In this document: positions 1 to 39,604 of the stretch, one piece after another
Numbering within the stretch: position 1 is the first letter of the stretch
Layout of the letters: every line of letters begins with the position of its first letter
Assembly: GCA_947462875.1 (NCBI GenBank)
Contig: CANHQJ010000022.1
Span: forward strand, 1 to 64,000
DNA from: Verrucomicrobiia bacterium
Lineage (GTDB): Bacteria > Verrucomicrobiota > Verrucomicrobiia > Verrucomicrobiales > Akkermansiaceae
DNA: 64,000 nt
Reading direction: 5' to 3'
Translations under genes and position numbers: made by a program
The notes under the pieces: model-generated
The model's input: the letters and a program-made list of their open reading frames with translations, nothing else
Told to the model about the DNA's origin: nothing
Databases searched by the model: none

Positions 1-33
1 CGGGCGCTCCTCCGCTACGCTCCGAAGCGCCCG
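1..33. repeat. Short palindromic element at window edge
   Basis: Eight-base arms CGGGCGCT (1-8) and AGCGCCCG (26-33) form an inverted repeat around a C-rich loop that itself contains TCCG repeats. It may be cut by the window edge. The shape is like that of dispersed intergenic hairpin repeats; I cannot tell whether it is repeated elsewhere in the genome. Confidence 0.4.
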
Positions 34-73
34 CAGGGGCAACCAAACCAACCACCAAAAACAAAGCCGCTAT

Positions 74-144
74 GGTGTCTCAATTATGAGGCAACGATCC
101 CGATCATTCAGGAACCTTTGGGTGTGCTCGAATTATGAGGCAAC
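74..144. repeat. Pair of short direct repeats
   Basis: The 14-base block AATTATGAGGCAAC occurs at 82-95 and again at 131-144. Each copy is preceded by a near-identical GGTGT...CTC segment (from 74 and from 121), so the repeat unit is about 22-24 bases with a 47-49 base period. It lies just upstream of the hydrolase gene. It could be an operator pair or the trace of a small duplication. Confidence 0.45.
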
Positions 145-222
145 AGGGATGCGGGGCAAGTGTGAGATTGATGGAAAAATGGCCACCACCGGCGCGTATC
201 TGCGGGGATGATCAAGGGAAGT

Positions 223-1062
223 ATGTTTCGCAAGCGGTTGGGGGCGGTATGGCTGATGCTGATGGCTGGATGCGCGATGGCGGAGGAGTGGAAAATGGAT
301 TTTCCCGAGGCAACAGTCGATCGCTGGCAAGGCCATGAACGGCATGTGTTTTCGGTGGCGGGGAAAAAGGCATGGGTCGTCGTGCCCACGCAACCGGCCG
401 CAGGACGGCTCTGGACCTGGGTCACGGAGTTTCCCGATGCGTTTTTCCCACGCACGGGCGTGCCGCAATTGCTGAAGGATCACGGCATTTATCATGCCCA
501 CGTGAGTGACTTCAACCGTCTGGGCTGCGACGAACAGCTCAAGGTGATGGATGCCTTTTACGAGTTGATGGTGCAAAAGGGCTTCGCCAAAAAGCCGGTC
601 ATGATCGGCCTGTCGCGCGGGGGATTCATGGCCTACCGCTGGGCGGCGGCCCATCCCGATCGGGTGGCTGGCATCTATGGCGATGCTCCGGTGTGCGATT
701 TGAAAAGCTGGCCGGGCGGATTCGGCAAAGGGAAGGGGAGCAAGGGCGATTGGGAAAAGGCGAAGTCGCTCTATGGCTGGAAGTCCGATGAGGAAGGAAA
801 AGCCTTCCAGGGCAATGCCGTGGATGACGGGCCTCTGGGCATCCTCGCGAAGCACAAGGTGCCGCTCTATCATGTGGTCGGCGATACCGATGACGTCGTG
901 CCAGTGGCCGAAAACACGGCCATCGTCGAGCGCAAATACAAACAACTCGGCGGCGAAATCACCGTGATGCACCACGCAGCGGGGCATCATCCGCACGGTC
1001 TCGACGACCCCGCACCGACGGTGGCATTCATCGTAAAAGCGCTCAAGGCGGCGAATCCGTGA
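223..1062 (+). CDS. Exported alpha/beta hydrolase
   Basis: An alpha/beta-hydrolase-fold protein of about 280 residues, probably an esterase or peptidase-like enzyme acting outside the cytoplasm. The N-terminus has basic residues (MFRKRLG) followed by a hydrophobic stretch ending LMAGC, which is either a signal peptide or a loose lipobox with Cys17. The nucleophile elbow GLSRGG places the catalytic Ser near residue 131. A later GDTDDVVP supplies a plausible acid and HHPHGLDD the His. An in-frame ATG at 208 is also possible; I prefer 223 because it begins a normal signal peptide. It is monocistronic and convergent with the LysR gene. The substrate is unknown. Confidence 0.8.
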   Translation: MFRKRLGAVWLMLMAGCAMAEEWKMDFPEATVDRWQGHERHVFSVAGKKAWVVVPTQPAAGRLWTWVTEFPDAFFPRTGVPQLLKDHGIYHAHVSDFNRLGCDEQLKVMDAFYELMVQKGFAKKPVMIGLSRGGFMAYRWAAAHPDRVAGIYGDAPVCDLKSWPGGFGKGKGSKGDWEKAKSLYGWKSDEEGKAFQGNAVDDGPLGILAKHKVPLYHVVGDTDDVVPVAENTAIVERKYKQLGGEITVMHHAAGHHPHGLDDPAPTVAFIVKALKAANP

Positions 1063-1117
1063 TGGTGATCAGGCTTATGATTTTGCCTCTGGCTTGAACG
1101 ATGGTCTGATCGGTATT

Positions 1118-2032
1118 TCATAGCATTTTTTCCACTCCCAAGACTTTCTCCAGACGATTCGTTGCGCTCGCATCCAGTCCCGCGCGTTCCAGACTGCGTG
1201 TGTTGGCAATCAGGACCATGGCCCGTTTTGGCAGGCTGGCGATGGGTTCGGCATGAAACCGCCGGGGATCGAGCTCGACGCTTGCGATTTCCGGTAAGAC
1301 CGCCGCCGCTTTGCCTGTGCGTACCACCCGCGCCATTTGGGTGAATGACGCCAGTCGTGCGATGACGTGAGGATGAAGCTTTTTCTCTGACAACCACGCC
1401 TGCCACCTGCTGCCGAATTGTCCACCGGGCAACAACTCCACTAAGGGGAATTTCTGAATCGCCTGCTCCACGGATCCCGCTGATTTCCCTGTGTTTTTTG
1501 CCACAAACAGCGCGTATCCCACATTGCCCAGCTTCCGGCGCTTGGTTTCTTTGGGCAGGGCATCGGCACGCAGGATGCCGAAGTCGATCCGTCCATCGGC
1601 CACGGCGCGCATGACATCGAGCGTGCGCATCTGCTCCAACTCCACGGTGACGTCGCCGAGCGCTTTGCGAATCTCGTCGATGCGCGGCGTGAGAATCCAG
1701 TCGATGATGCTGCCCTGCGCGCCGAAGCGAACCTGGACGCTCTTTCCGGCCATCGCGGCGCGGAAATCCTCCAGTTCGCGGAATTGTCGGCGGATCATCA
1801 GCGCGAGGTGATGGCCTTCATCGGTGATCTCGATGCGACGTCCGACACGGCGGGTGAGTGCCACGCCGAAAAAGGACTCCATCTCCTTGATCTGCCGCGA
1901 GAACTGCGATTGTTTGGTCGCATCTCCCAGTGCGGCCTTGGCGATGTTGCCCGCTTCCACGACTTGCAGAAAGGAGTTCATTCTCTCCAGCGAGAGGCCG
2001 GAAGTGGACAAAAGATGTGCGGATTGATTCAT
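1118..2032 (-). CDS. LysR-family transcriptional regulator
   Basis: A 304-residue DNA-binding regulator. The N-terminal winged helix-turn-helix runs over about residues 15-75 (MNSFLQVVEAGNIAKAA, then SQFSRQIKEMESFFGVAL and TRRVGRRIEITDEG). A periplasmic-binding-like effector domain of normal LysR length follows. The longest frame begins 21 codons upstream, but the ATG at 2030-2032 gives the usual short lead before the HTH. The gene is divergent from the metallophosphatase at 2105, with only about 70 bases between them, so it may control that gene as well as itself. A perfect ATGACT-GAAA-AGTCAT dyad sits on the start codon. The effector is unknown. Confidence 0.85.
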   Translation of the reverse strand: MNQSAHLLSTSGLSLERMNSFLQVVEAGNIAKAALGDATKQSQFSRQIKEMESFFGVALTRRVGRRIEITDEGHHLALMIRRQFRELEDFRAAMAGKSVQVRFGAQGSIIDWILTPRIDEIRKALGDVTVELEQMRTLDVMRAVADGRIDFGILRADALPKETKRRKLGNVGYALFVAKNTGKSAGSVEQAIQKFPLVELLPGGQFGSRWQAWLSEKKLHPHVIARLASFTQMARVVRTGKAAAVLPEIASVELDPRRFHAEPIASLPKRAMVLIANTRSLERAGLDASATNRLEKVLGVEKML

Positions 2033-3461: not shown

Positions 3462-3545
3462 GCCACCGTGGCGGAATCGGTAGACGTCGCGGACTTAAAA
3501 TCCGTTGCCCGTGAGGGCGTGCCGGTTCGAGTCCGGCCGGTGGCA
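3462..3545 (+). tRNA. tRNA-Leu (anticodon TAA)
   Basis: The 7-bp acceptor stem pairs GCCACCG (3462-3468) with CGGTGGC (3538-3544), with discriminator A at 3545. The anticodon loop CTTAAAA holds TAA at 3496-3498, reading UUA. A long variable arm (TTGCCCGTGAGGGCGT) and the GGTTCGAGTCC T-arm are typical of class II tRNA-Leu. The CCA end is not encoded. Confidence 0.97.
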
Positions 3546-3599
3546 CTTTTGGGATTGAATGATCGAAATTTTGGCTGGGAGGCGGGGACGCCTCCGCCA

Positions 3600-3639
3600 C
3601 AAAACAAAACCGCCCATCAGAGCTGCTGATGGGCGGTTT
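3600..3639 (-). terminator. Intrinsic terminator downstream of ppdK
   Basis: Perfect 14-base arms, AAACCGCCCATCAG at 3607-3620 and its complement at 3626-3639, enclose a 5-base loop. Read on the minus strand, the stem is followed by a T-rich tail (TTTTGTTTT), so it most likely ends the ppdK transcript. Confidence 0.8.
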
Positions 3640-3646
3640 GTCGTTA

Positions 3647-3698
3647 GGGGCGGACTGCCTACTTCGTCCCGCTGAGCGGGACTACGAAGGCCGGGAAA
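3647..3698. repeat. Long imperfect palindrome between terminator and ppdK
   Basis: Nested arms: GCGGACT near 3648 pairs with AGTCCGC near 3691, CTTCG with CGAAG, and TCCCGCT with AGCGGGA around a single-base loop. This is more than a simple terminator and looks like a dispersed palindromic repeat unit. It lies just past the ppdK stop codon. Confidence 0.5.
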
Positions 3699-3710
3699 GT
3701 CCGCGCTCCA

Positions 3711-6536
3711 TTATTTTTTAGCAGCTTTTTTCGCGGCTTTTTTGGCTGGTGCTTTGGCACCACCGGCGCGTTTTTCCTCGATGGCTGCCTGAGCGGCGGC
3801 GAGGCGGGCTACGGGCACGCGGTAGGGCGAGCAGCTGACGTAGGCGAGGCCGAGCTTGTGGCAGAACTTGACGCTGTCCGGGTCACCACCGTGTTCGCCG
3901 CAGATGCCGAGTTTGATGTCGGGGCGGACGCTGCGGCCTTTGGCGACGGCGATCTCCATGAGTTGTCCCACGCCGGTCACATCGAGTGTGGCGAAGGGGT
4001 TTTTCTTGAAGATTTCGTTTTCGGTGTAAGGCAGCAGGAAGTTGCCCATGTCGTCGCGGCTGATGCCGAGAGCGGTCTGGGTGAGGTCGTTGGTGCCGAA
4101 GCTGAAGAACTGGGCGGTGCCGGCGATGTCATCGGCGGTGAGCGCGCCACGTGGCACTTCGATCATGGTGCCGACGAGGTAGTCGAACTTGATCTTCTTC
4201 TCGGCCATGACGGCTTTGGCGGTGGCGTGCACCACTTCGACCTGCAGTTGCAGCTCCTTGGCGAAGCCGACGAGCGGGATCATCACTTCGGGCTTCACTT
4301 TGATGCCTTTCTTGGCGACATCGGCAGCGGCTTCGAAGATCGCACGGGCCTGCATCTCGGTGATTTCGGGGTAGGCGATGCCGAGACGGCAACCGCGGTG
4401 ACCGAGCATCGGGTTGAACTCGTGGAGTTGTGCCACGCGCTGTTGGATGTAATCGCACTTGATGTTGAGTTTCTTGGCGAGGTCCAGTTGTTGCTCCTTG
4501 GTGTGAGGAAGGAACTCGTGGAGCGGGGGATCCAGCAGACGGATGGTGGCGGGCAGACCTTTGAGGGCCTTGAAGATGCCGGCGAAGTCAGCGCGCTGAT
4601 ACGGCAGCAACTTGGCGAGCGCCTTGCGACGGTCGGCTTCGTTGTTGGCGAGAATCATTTCGCGCATGGCGTCGATGCGGTCGCCTTCGAAGAACATGTG
4701 CTCCGTGCGGGTCAGACCAATGCCTTTGGCACCGAATGCCACGGCGATGTTGGTTTGCTCCGGCGTGTCGGCGTTGGTGCGGACATCCATGCGGGTGGCT
4801 TTTTCGCACCATTGCATGAGCAGCAGGAAGTTTTGGAACTTCTCGGTCTTCTGGGCTTTTTTGTCGCCGCTGACGATACCGGTGATGATCTCGGAAGGAG
4901 CGGTTTTCAGCTCGCCTGCATAGACGATACCGGAGGTGCCGTCGATGGAGAGGAAATCGCCTTCCTTGAAGGTGAGACCGGAAACCTTGACGGTTTTCTT
5001 ATCGTAGTCGATGTCGAGAGCGCCGGCACCGCAGATGCAGACTTTGCCCATTTGACGTGCGACGAGAGCGGCGTGGGAAGACACACCACCTTTGGCGGTG
5101 AGGATGCCCTCGGCCGCGATCATGCCGCGAAGGTCTTCGGGAGACGTTTCGTTGCGGACGAGCAGGACTTTTTCACCGGCTTGTTCGGCGAGAACGGCGC
5201 GGTCGGCGTTGAAGTAGATTTTACCGGAAGCGGCGCCAGGACCAGCGGGAAGGCCGGAGGCGATGGCTTTGGCTTTCTTGACTTCGGCGAGGTCGAAGAT
5301 CGGCGCGAGCAATTGGTCGAGCTGATCGGCGGGGTTGCGCAGAACGGCGGTTTCCCAGTCGATGAGTTTTTCTTTCACCATGTCGGCGGCGAATTTCAGT
5401 GCGGCGGCGGCGGTGCGCTTGCCGTTGCGGGTTTGCAACATGAACAGAGTGCCGTTCTGGATGGTGAACTCGATGTCCTGCACGTCCTTGAAGTGTTTTT
5501 CCAGGATGGAGCGGACTTTCATCAGTTCGGCGAAGGCTTTTGGCATCGCTTTCTTGAGCTTGGAAACCGGCTCGGGGGTGCGGACACCGGCGACCACGTC
5601 TTCGCCCTGGGCGTTGATGAGGAACTCACCGTAGAACTCGTTGGCGCCGTTGGCGGGGTTGCGGGTGAAGGCCACGCCGGAACCGGACTCTTTGCCGGTG
5701 TTGCCGTAGACCATGGCCTGCACGTTGACGGCCGTGCCCCACTCGGCGGGGATGTTGTATTTGCGGCGATAGACGATGGCGCGGTCGTTCATCCACGAGC
5801 TGAACACGGCACCGGCGGCACCGCGGAGCTGGTCCCACACGTCGTTCGGGAAACCTTTGCCCGTGCGCTGCTTGACGAGTGCTTTGAAGCGCTTGACCAG
5901 TTCCTTTTGGTCATCGGCGGTGAGATCGGAGTCGATGATATCTTTGCCGTATTTTTCGTGTTTGAAGCCTTCGATCACGACTTCGAATGGCTCGTGGTCT
6001 TCGCCTTCGCGCTTCTGCACGCCGAGAACGACGTCGCCATACATCTGGATGAAACGGCGGTAGCAGTCCCAGGCGAAACGCTCGTTTTTCGTAGCGGCGA
6101 CGAGGGCCTCCACGGTTTGGTCGTTGAGGCCGAGGTTGAGAACGGTGTCCATCATGCCGGGCATGGAGTCACGGGCGCCGGAGCGCACAGCGACGAGGAG
6201 AGGCATGCCGGAGGTGCCGCCGAACTTGGCGCCCATGATTTTTTCCATGTTGGCGACGCCTGCTTCCATTTGTGCCTGGAGCGAGACGGGGTAGGATTTT
6301 TTGTTTGCGTAGAAATAGGTGCAAACTTCCGTGCTGATGGTGAATCCTGGAGGCACAGGGAGACCGATGCGGGTCATTTCTGCGAGGTTGGCACCTTTTC
6401 CGCCGAGAAGGGCTTTTTGGCTGCCATCACCATCGGCCTTACCGGCACCCCAGGTGTAAACATACTTGACGGACTTGGCTCCCTTGGCGGGGGCTGACTT
6501 TTTCGCGGCCTTGGTGGCCTTTTTTGCTGCTGCCAT
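3711..6536 (-). CDS. ppdK: Pyruvate, phosphate dikinase
   Basis: Interconverts pyruvate, ATP and phosphate with PEP, AMP and PPi in the cytoplasm, linking glycolysis and gluconeogenesis. The order is an N-terminal ATP-grasp nucleotide domain, a central phosphohistidine domain ([16 protein letters not shown], catalytic His near residue 488), and a C-terminal PEP/pyruvate TIM barrel ([19 protein letters not shown] with catalytic Cys near 879). At 941 residues it is slightly longer than usual because of extra ends: the N-terminus opens with about 20 residues of [12 protein letters not shown]-type sequence and the C-terminus ends [14 protein letters not shown] start at the MAAAKK ATG rather than 16 codons upstream, because the upstream codons look untranslated. 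It is single-gene with its own terminator. Confidence 0.96.
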
Positions 6537-34287: not shown

Positions 34288-36666
<2,379 letters not shown>

Positions 36667-37422: not shown

Positions 37423-38382
37423 ATGAAAGCATCATTTCTTGGATGGATTGTACTGACGCACCTCGCCATCGCGGCACCTGTGCGGGACTTGCAGGCTCTT
37501 CTGGAAGTAGAGGCCAAGGTGCAGGCGGTGGCGCAGAAGCGCGTGCCGCTGACGGTGGCCTTGATCGCGGCGGATGCCTCCAGCTCCGGTTCGGGCGTGA
37601 TCACCAGTGAGGAGGGGCTGATCCTCACCGCCGCGCACGTGGTGCAGGGCAGCGAGACGATGGATGTGGTTTTTCCGGATGGCAAGACGGTGAAAGGAAA
37701 AGTCCTGGGCGCGAACTACGGAAAGGACCTCGCCATGGTGAAGATCGAGGGCGAGGGCAAGTGGCCGGCCGCCCCGCGCGGTGCCTCGAAAACGCTGGAA
37801 GTCGGCGACTGGGTGGTGGCCACGGGACACGCGGCGGGCTTTGATCCGGCGCGCACGCCGCCGGTGCGCTTCGGCCGTGTCGTTTCCAAGGGGCCGGGGA
37901 ATTTTTTCACGACCGACTGCACTCTCATCGGCGGCGATTCCGGCGGGCCGATCTTCGATCTGGAAGGAAACATCATCGGCATCAACTCGAACATCGGCCA
38001 AGCGCTCAAGGTGAACAACCATGCGGGTGTGGATGGCTTCAAAGAGGACTGGGACAAGATGCTGAATGGCGAGCAGTGGGGTAAGCTGGTGCTGGATCCT
38101 TTGCAAAACGAGGACATGCCCGTTCTGGGTGTGGCGATCGATTGGTCGCGCGCGGGATTGATCGTCGGCGAGGTCAGCAAGGGCTCGAAGGCGACGGAAG
38201 CGGGCATCCAGCCGGGTGATGTGATTGTTTCGTTGGAAGGGCAGAAAATCCGCAATCTGGATGATCTGCGCAATGAGCTCCTGCGCAAGCAAGTGGGAGA
38301 CAAGGTGAAGCTGGCGATTTTGCGCGATGGCAAGGCGATGGATAAAGAAGTGGAACTAGTTCGCCGCGGCGATGCCCAATAA
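37423..38382 (+). CDS. HtrA/DegP-like PDZ serine protease
   Basis: A 319-residue exported serine endopeptidase of the S1C family. After a signal peptide (ending AIAAP) the trypsin-like domain carries the whole triad: His in TAAHVV (residue 72), Asp in GKDLAMVK (102) and Ser in GGDSGGP (173). A single C-terminal PDZ domain (about residues 225-315) has the ligand loop VLGVAIDWSRAGLIVGEV. Such enzymes degrade or chaperone misfolded periplasmic proteins. It is co-directional with, and 19 bases before, a second protease-like PDZ gene, so both are likely made together. Confidence 0.9.
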   Translation: MKASFLGWIVLTHLAIAAPVRDLQALLEVEAKVQAVAQKRVPLTVALIAADASSSGSGVITSEEGLILTAAHVVQGSETMDVVFPDGKTVKGKVLGANYGKDLAMVKIEGEGKWPAAPRGASKTLEVGDWVVATGHAAGFDPARTPPVRFGRVVSKGPGNFFTTDCTLIGGDSGGPIFDLEGNIIGINSNIGQALKVNNHAGVDGFKEDWDKMLNGEQWGKLVLDPLQNEDMPVLGVAIDWSRAGLIVGEVSKGSKATEAGIQPGDVIVSLEGQKIRNLDDLRNELLRKQVGDKVKLAILRDGKAMDKEVELVRRGDAQ

Positions 38383-38401: not shown

Positions 38402-39604
38402 ATGAAACGCCATATTTTGTTAGGATGTTTGATGGCCTTGCCGCTGTGGGCGCAGGATTTGCCATCACAGAGGGATTTGCCACTGCAGAAAGAACAGGAC
38501 CGCGTGGTGCTGCGCAGGCAGGCGGGCGAGGTGTTCGATGTGGTATCGCCCATCGCGCAAAAAGCGGGCAAGTCCGCAGTGTGGGTGTGGGCCGGTGGCA
38601 AACGGCAACTGTGCGTGGGCACCGTGGTGGGAGATGGTTCGCAGGTGCTGGCGAAATGGAGCGAGGTGGCGCGCTCGAAAGGCCAGCCGCTGCAATGTGT
38701 GGCGGGCGGCAACGTGACCTATGATGCCACCATCGAGGGCGTCTACGAGGATGAGGACTTGGTGCTTCTCAAGCTGAAGGAATCCAAGCTGCGCCCTGTC
38801 ACATTTGCTCCGGCGGCAAAGCCGGATCTGGGACGTTTCCTCATCGCGGCAGGTCCCGGTGATGTGACGCTGGGCATGGGCGTGGTGAGTGTGAAGGAGC
38901 GCACCCTGCGTGAGAGCGATCAGGCGTTTGTGGGGGTGGGTGTGGAGAATCACACGGATGGCACAGGCGTCGTCGTTCGTCAGGTGGCGGAGGATTCGCC
39001 AGCGGAAAAGATGGGTCTCAAGGTGGGTGATATCATTCTCAATCTGAACGGGAAAGTGATCGGAAGCATGATGGAATTCCGCTCCATGCTCACGACGATG
39101 AAACCCGGCGACACGGTGAAAGTTCTGTTTTCCCGCGAGGGCAAATCACTTGCGGTCGATCTGGTGCTAGGCTCGAAGCAGGCGATGGGGCAATTTCCGC
39201 AGCGGCGCCTGGAGGTCATGGAGCGCATGGGTGGCGAGATCAGCCAGGTGCGCGATGGCTTTCCTTCCGTGATTCAGACCGATATGGTGCTCAATCCCGA
39301 GGAGTGCGGTGGCCCGGTGCTCGACCTGCAAGGGCAGGTGGTCGGCATCACCGCTGCGCGTGCGGGGCGCATTCGCAGTTATGTCATTCCTGCGGAAACC
39401 ATCGTCGCGATGCTGCAACGCAAGCCGGTGGAGGAGAGTCTGGCCAAAGTGAAATCCGTGCAGCCCGGACCCCAGCTATCGCGCACCCGCGAAGTCCGTC
39501 CCCGCCTCAATCGTCCCGACATGGAGCGCATGAGGGCCCGCATGAAGGAAATGCAGCAGTTGATGCGCAAGCTGGATGAGGAACTCGGCGGACTTGATCG
39601 CTGA
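38402..39604 (+). CDS. Protease-like protein with PDZ inserted in the trypsin fold
   Basis: A 400-residue exported protein. After a signal peptide comes the N-terminal half of a trypsin-like fold (residues about 45-170), where the His position reads VLAKWSEV, so no catalytic His. A PDZ domain (about 176-256; VGVGVENHTDG...SPAEKMGLKVGD) follows, and only after it the second half of the fold: FPSVIQTDMVLNPEECGGPV, in which Cys302 replaces the nucleophile Ser of GNSGGP. The C-terminus is a charged Arg/Met helix (RMRARMKEMQQLMRK). It is probably an inactive or altered partner of the protease 19 bases upstream. Substrates unknown. Confidence 0.8.
   Translation: MKRHILLGCLMALPLWAQDLPSQRDLPLQKEQDRVVLRRQAGEVFDVVSPIAQKAGKSAVWVWAGGKRQLCVGTVVGDGSQVLAKWSEVARSKGQPLQCVAGGNVTYDATIEGVYEDEDLVLLKLKESKLRPVTFAPAAKPDLGRFLIAAGPGDVTLGMGVVSVKERTLRESDQAFVGVGVENHTDGTGVVVRQVAEDSPAEKMGLKVGDIILNLNGKVIGSMMEFRSMLTTMKPGDTVKVLFSREGKSLAVDLVLGSKQAMGQFPQRRLEVMERMGGEISQVRDGFPSVIQTDMVLNPEECGGPVLDLQGQVVGITAARAGRIRSYVIPAETIVAMLQRKPVEESLAKVKSVQPGPQLSRTREVRPRLNRPDMERMRARMKEMQQLMRKLDEELGGLDR

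Follow-up and report, generated by a model that had tools for sequence, protein, structure and literature searches.

The window, by which we mean the whole stretch of 64,000 nucleotides analysed from a Verrucomicrobiia bacterium of the Akkermansiaceae, encodes a trypsin-like protein whose fold is split by a PDZ domain, and this protein lies immediately downstream of a gene for a second, HtrA-like protease. Two conclusions are well supported: that catalysis has been lost in the family of proteins with the inserted PDZ, and that these pseudoproteases are paired with an HtrA-like partner. On balance we lean toward the interpretation that pseudoprotease and partner make up a two-component HtrA, in which the former, with its PDZ in loop L3, has the regulatory role and the upstream gene supplies the catalytic subunit. 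The coordinates of the two genes and of their parts are collected in Table 1.

Table 1. Features of the pseudoprotease and its partner, with positions in the window unless a locus is named.
Feature	Position	Strand	Detail	Evidence
Partner, HtrA-like protease	37423..38382	+	His72-Asp102-Ser173, C-terminal PDZ, shortened L3	ORF, Pfam, model
Pseudoprotease gene, inserted PDZ	38402..39604	+	400 aa; other in-frame ATG at 38372	ORF, Pfam, model
Signal-peptide-like N-terminus	38402..38455	+	residues 1-18	by eye
N-terminal part of S1 fold	38573..38917	+	residues 58-172, through strand 8 (GVVSVKER)	Pfam, HMMs, model
Ser87 codon	38660..38662	+	place of catalytic His (AKWS here, TAAH in partner)	alignments
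Asp119 codon	38756..38758	+	catalytic Asp position retained	alignments
Arg167 codon	38900..38902	+	aligns with L3 Arg of HtrA activation cluster (DegS Arg178 / DegP Arg187)	alignment, papers
Inserted PDZ domain in loop L3	38918..39175	+	residues 173-258	Pfam, HMMs, model
C-terminal part of S1 fold	39203..39451	+	residues 268-350	Pfam, HMMs, model, fold match
Gln292 codon	39275..39277	+	aligns with activation-cluster Gln (DegS Gln191 / DegP Gln200)	alignment, paper
Cys302 codon	39305..39307	+	nucleophile position, unconserved across family	alignments
Long C-terminal helix	39512..39598	+	residues 371-399	model
Tandem-PDZ proteins	L153:744-4181, L151:359-3286, L152:1736-4756, L154:1278-3398

A single barrel with a PDZ domain in loop L3

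An earlier note, made from the letters of the window, had placed a PDZ domain between the two halves of a trypsin-like fold, and this is borne out by Pfam, by HMMs and by a structural model. Pfam finds PDZ_2 at residues 177-254 (E 4.4e-18) and reports Trypsin_2 as two stretches, the best of which covers residues 73-167 and profile positions 3-108 of 144. HMMs built in this analysis return the same order of N-terminal half, PDZ and C-terminal half. The window protein was aligned with 63 relatives, and the AlphaFold2 model computed from these 64 rows has a mean pLDDT of 87.7 and a pTM of 0.78. In the model the PDZ occupies residues 179-255; it is preceded by strands at 59-64, 68-76, 81-85, 97-100, 106-115, 120-125, 146-150 and 156-167 and followed by strands at 290-293, 305-307, 313-320 and 326-330. 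The model was compared by VIA-align with two DegS chains that contain the protease only, 2rce_I (Z 21.3, 186 of 198 residues, rmsd 4.3, model residues 31-344) and 2qf3_A (Z 20.6, 177 of 200 residues, rmsd 2.7, model residues 47-347). Because these chains, which lack a PDZ, fit across both halves, the halves make one fold, and this is the trypsin-like double barrel. A prediction in which the first and last segments failed to form one barrel would have told against the arrangement; no such outcome was obtained, and two separate folds are ruled out by the model together with a match that spans both halves. Whole-chain Foldseek TM-scores, normalised to the query, were low (0.26-0.37 among the 50 matches listed). 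We attribute this to the displaced PDZ, which breaks the order of the chain, and the VIA-align comparison was used instead.

Strand 8 precedes the PDZ and strand 9 follows it, which places the insertion in the loop termed L3 in work on HtrA. The note had described its site as lying between the strand that ends in GVVS and the strand that carries the nucleophile. The placement between these strands stands, but the nucleophile position falls in the loop after strand 9 and not on a strand. In the HtrA proteins of MEROPS family S1C the PDZ is C-terminal to a contiguous protease domain, whereas here it divides the two halves. With the NCBIfam Do-family model TIGR02037 the protein scores 100.1 bits, under the cut-off of 416.2, and the partner is likewise under this cut-off at 164.9. 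From the appearance of the N-terminus to the eye we infer that the pseudoprotease is probably exported.

A search for the same domain order among relatives had also been proposed, and the order was found within a single ORF at 148 of 149 relatives' loci, some likeness among which is to be expected because they had been selected as those that best match the window protein. The exception, L089, consists of two ORFs. A chance occurrence or a frame artefact is ruled out by this recurrence. The 149 loci are L001-L130 and L141-L159; 12 duplicates were removed, and 136 distinct members are used in the counts below. Loop L3 tolerates insertions of whole domains, up to four PDZs in tandem: at the same insertion site there are two PDZs in L151, L152 and L154 and four in L153 (the Pfam totals of 4 PDZ_2 stretches in L152 and 5 in L153 include PDZs ahead of the insert). 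In L151-L153 the tandem-PDZ protein carries, in addition, a fused protease domain of the active type.

Loss of the catalytic residues and retention of the activation cluster

When 23 relatives were aligned, every row had Ser in the column of the catalytic His, and the nucleophile column varied. The same positions were read in 50 members reached without motif patterns, namely the window protein, the 29 best matches and 20 stretches chosen from hits. In these the His position is Ser in 47, Glu in 2 and Thr in 1, the Asp position is Asp in 48 and Asn in 2, and the nucleophile position is Cys in 20, Met in 10, Ala in 8, Val in 7, Ile in 2, Ser in 2 and Thr in 1. Over all 136 distinct members the nucleophile position is Cys in 76, Ile in 17, Val in 16, Met in 11, Ala in 9, Gln in 3, Ser in 2 and Thr in 2; for L031-L110, the best 80 of 101, residue frequencies at positions 82-90 and 299-308 are biased, since the patterns used to find these loci covered those positions. 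The window protein has Ser87 in place of His and Cys302, a variable residue in the family, in place of Ser, and it keeps Asp119. These residues make it very unlikely that its barrel works as a serine protease. A cysteine protease is made unlikely by the variability of position 302 and the loss of His. We also considered an active enzyme with an unusual centre, in which either Cys302 serves as the nucleophile or a conserved cluster of Lys85, Ser87 and Asp119 does the work, and we regard this as highly improbable. The 76 members with Cys at position 302 and the conservation of Lys85 (47 of 50 pattern-free members), Ser87 (47 of 50) and Asp119 (48 of 50) would suit such a centre. However, 56 of the 136 have Ile, Val, Met, Ala or Gln at position 302, position 87 is Glu in two members and Thr in one, position 119 is Asn in two, and there is no His at the position of the general base.

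Residues of another kind have been kept. The activation cluster of HtrA proteins consists of Thr167, Arg178 and Gln191 in DegS and of Thr176, Ser183, Arg187 and Gln200 in DegP, according to the available part of PMC11642142, in which L3 of DegS is the loop that passes on the PDZ signal and Arg178 in this loop touches the LD loop of the subunit next to it. The same role is described for Arg302 of HtrA1 in what is available of PMC5666011. In an alignment with a DegP-like solved chain, Arg167 of the pseudoprotease occupies the column of the L3 Arg and Gln292, ten residues ahead of the nucleophile position, that of the cluster Gln, so that by alignment the protein appears to retain both. Each is present in 50 of the 50 pattern-free members; among the 136 distinct members Arg167 is found in 130 and Gln292 in 135, and position 163, which corresponds to DegP Ser183, is Ser in 111. 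The third cluster residue, Thr167 of DegS, has no conserved counterpart in the 50 pattern-free members, where the nearest position, 156, varies. The Arg is absent from six members (L151-L154, L156 and L157), all from the Planctomycetota search, which have a Tyr-containing stretch instead and which carry extra PDZs, a fusion or both. An Arg relay is therefore not universal in the family. Alternatively, Arg167 could be a structural anchor for the PDZ. Elsewhere in the protein, nearly all members keep an AR-x-x-R motif that follows strand 11, with Arg323 in 136 and Arg320 in 132 of the 136.

The earlier note had suggested that the insertion could couple peptide binding directly to the barrel. Such coupling is plausible, because the PDZ is inserted in the loop that passes on the PDZ signal in DegS (PMC11642142, available part), but the protein's own active site is the less likely target. 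Since the barrel is so unlikely to be a working protease, coupling to the adjacent partner is more likely.

The partner protease, its shortened L3 and the distribution of the pair

The stop codon of the partner gene ends 19 bases ahead of the ATG of the pseudoprotease at 38402. The partner has the triad motifs, a trypsin-like fold and a C-terminal PDZ. Its AlphaFold2 model (31 rows, pLDDT 88.6) matches HtrA structures over both the protease and the PDZ, the best match being 2z9i_A (Z 26.2, 268 residues, rmsd 4.4). What it lacks is a normal L3 with Arg: DSSP assigns strands to residues 148-155 and 161-164, with five residues between them. In the LD region of the partner (residues 139-152), Arg144 and Arg149 are invariant in 31 aligned rows, and this may be a docking surface.

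An HtrA-like protease with the His and GDSGG motifs accompanies 129 of the 136 members, 111 of them upstream on the same strand and 18 as fusions, and the partners mostly have a PDZ of their own. All 129 have the His motif before GDSGG; the Ser is intact by construction because partners were selected by GDSGG. The Asp was not a selection criterion, and Asp102 is kept in 95 of 95 rows. The length of L3 was estimated from the distance between the strand-8 motif and GDSGG in 128 partners, all except that of L156. This distance is 16-20 residues in 127 and 23 in one. Arg is found at the L3 site in none of the 128 and Gln at the second cluster site in 21; in 34 the short stretch contains an Arg at another place. 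An earlier count of 112 distinct partners had given 16-18 residues in 111, no Arg at the site, Gln in 15 and Arg elsewhere in 23. For comparison, 11 other HtrA-like loci were fetched from four genomes (G000, G264, G435 and G659) and residues were counted by hand; of the 10 that were readable, 9 have the L3 Arg, and 24-32 residues are found there. The window's genome also encodes Trypsin_2 proteins that are less closely related; of these, L131 has the Arg motif and L132, L134, L135, L137 and L139 do not. Taken together, the residue and L3 counts describe a complementary pair: the partner keeps the triad but not the L3 relay, and the pseudoprotease keeps the relay but not the triad.

These counts bear on the possibility that the pseudoprotease is an adaptor or chaperone, whose PDZ or PDZs capture substrates for the partner without switching its active site, Arg167 being purely structural. 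The arrays of two (L151, L152, L154) or four (L153) PDZs that lack Arg167 suit capture, and the modelled partner has the fold of a normal HtrA. However, this explanation does not account for the presence of Arg167 in 130 of 136 members while L3 of the partner is shortened and without Arg, and we consider it rather unlikely.

Of the 18 fusions, 17 have the active domain first. In the reverse case, L121 (positions 1-1782, minus strand), the pseudoprotease comes first and the active-type HtrA-like protease second. By eye, the fusions of L102 (positions 3512-5326), L105 and L106 have an EF-hand-like stretch in the linker where the partner would have its PDZ; Pfam reported no EF-hand in L102 at E 0.001. 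No partner was seen at 7 of the 136 members. Two of these, L095 and L108, are near the end of the available DNA, and five (L094, L096, L127, L141 and L159) have upstream DNA; among the five, the genomes of L127, L141 and L159 were searched, and all three contain unlinked proteases of the partner type (L163, L161 and L162, respectively). When neighbours were counted at 80 loci with flanks of up to 4 kb, the partner was found at 76, MlaD at 6, an AraC-type protein at 5, a hypothetical protein at 2 and katG at 1. A conserved operon with katG, MlaD or AraC-type neighbours was rejected, as these occur at just a few loci within such flanks. In the window, the ORF at 34330-36666, which we take to be a KatG-type catalase-peroxidase, has a signal-peptide-like start that suggests an exported form.

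A tree was built from 73 partners, 73 pseudoproteases trimmed of the PDZ and, from the window's genome, 4 further HtrA-like proteins. The pseudoproteases form one clade (support 100/99) and the partners another (100/98), each of which extends across Verrucomicrobiota and Planctomycetota. A second, paralogous pair in the window's genome (L118) has largely the same neighbours in the pseudoprotease half of the tree as in the partner half, which would be expected if pairs were duplicated as units. The match between the halves is large and not complete; those of L119, for example, are placed differently. At E <= 1e-25, 37 of 387 genomes from the window's phylum have a match, as do 53 of the 294 that belong to the same phylum as G412, the Planctomycetota record that contains L110. 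The pair is present in several genera of the Akkermansiaceae and in Planctomycetota. In genus g3 of this family, with genomes of 2.2-3.5 Mb, 13 of the 23 listed genomes have a match; this is probably the gut genus Akkermansia, as we presume. Records L031, L032, L033, L035 and L039 are titled Akkermansia muciniphila, apparently belong to the window's genus (g1) and not to g3, and seem to be wrongly labelled. A tblastn search of plasmids returned 16 records, none of which covers 80% of the query, and spread of the pseudoprotease on plasmids was rejected on this ground. Of the 15 plasmid matches listed, 3 have no annotation and the other 12 are labelled as DegQ, Do-family or trypsin-like proteins.

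A proposed mechanism and its relation to known systems

If the pseudoprotease serves a two-component HtrA as its regulatory subunit, the two proteins would assemble through their protease folds, in the manner of the subunits of an HtrA trimer. The inserted PDZ would bind a peptide or the tail of a misfolded protein, and L3 would move as a result. Arg167, with Gln292, might then dock on the LD loop of the neighbouring catalytic subunit and switch on its active site. Export, a physical complex, peptide binding and activation rather than inhibition as the direction of control are what we infer. The opposite sign is conceivable, with the pseudoprotease holding the partner off until peptide binds the inserted PDZ or acting as a decoy that binds substrates unproductively. 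The unliganded PDZ of DegS, together with L3, keeps that enzyme inactive (PMC11642142, available part), and the protease fold of the pseudoprotease has been retained. Nothing specific stands against inhibition, as the sequence is silent on the sign of the effect and the fused and paired forms suit either direction; we judge it improbable. With the pseudoprotease as a regulatory subunit, a broader and more tentative proposal, to which we give somewhat less than an even chance, is that the pair is an old, undescribed two-component HtrA machine common to Planctomycetota and Verrucomicrobiota. Sensing and the relay between subunits would reside in a dead protease, through one to four PDZs in L3, and the catalytic subunit would have lost its L3, so that activity would need hetero-assembly.

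PDZ domains inside or between the parts of a protease occur in families S41 (CtpA/CtpB) and M50 (RseP). These proteases have folds unrelated to the present one and are active enzymes. In a full-text literature search the arrangement was undescribed in the listed titles and the openings of their abstracts, and no role assigned to the pair was found in the literature searched; most subscription papers, InterPro and MEROPS lie outside this search, and an unnamed family entry may exist there. In the available text of a survey of 7,852 microbial PDZ proteins (PMC6411480), the words 'inserted' and 'inactive' do not occur.

A functional parallel may be drawn with MamO and MamE of magnetotactic bacteria. 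According to the available part of PMC4794232, MamO, an inactive trypsin-like relative of HtrA, is needed in a non-catalytic way for MamE-dependent proteolysis, and a direct interaction of the two was not detected. Unlike the present protein, MamO keeps His and Asp, has Thr as its nucleophile residue and carries a TauE-like transporter domain (PMC4794232, same part); no such domain is among the Pfam hits of the pseudoprotease. The term 'PDZ' is absent from the main text of that paper as available. Deg5 and Deg8 of plants are also a synergistic couple from the HtrA family, one member of which has no PDZ and does not degrade casein. They differ in that the available part of PMC3640471 describes no inserted PDZ, and in that the conserved His is present, although rotated in the crystal structures.

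HtrA, DegP, DegQ and DegS of MEROPS family S1C are also among the closest known systems, and the pseudoprotease is probably derived from a protein of the HtrA kind. Its fold matches DegS, DegP, AlgW, MucD and M. tuberculosis HtrA with Z of about 21, and it shares with this family an HtrA-type PDZ, the L3 Arg, the activation-cluster Gln and, probably, export. It differs in the position of the PDZ, which is in L3 here and C-terminal there, in the loss of the catalytic His and Ser, and in its pairing with a second protein, which is catalytic and has a shortened L3. How a PDZ signal travels through L3 to a neighbouring active site is a core question of HtrA allostery, and this has been worked out in homotrimers like DegS, in which each subunit is both sensor and enzyme. 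In the present pair these roles are apparently divided between two proteins, so that mutations could be made in one half of the relay at a time.
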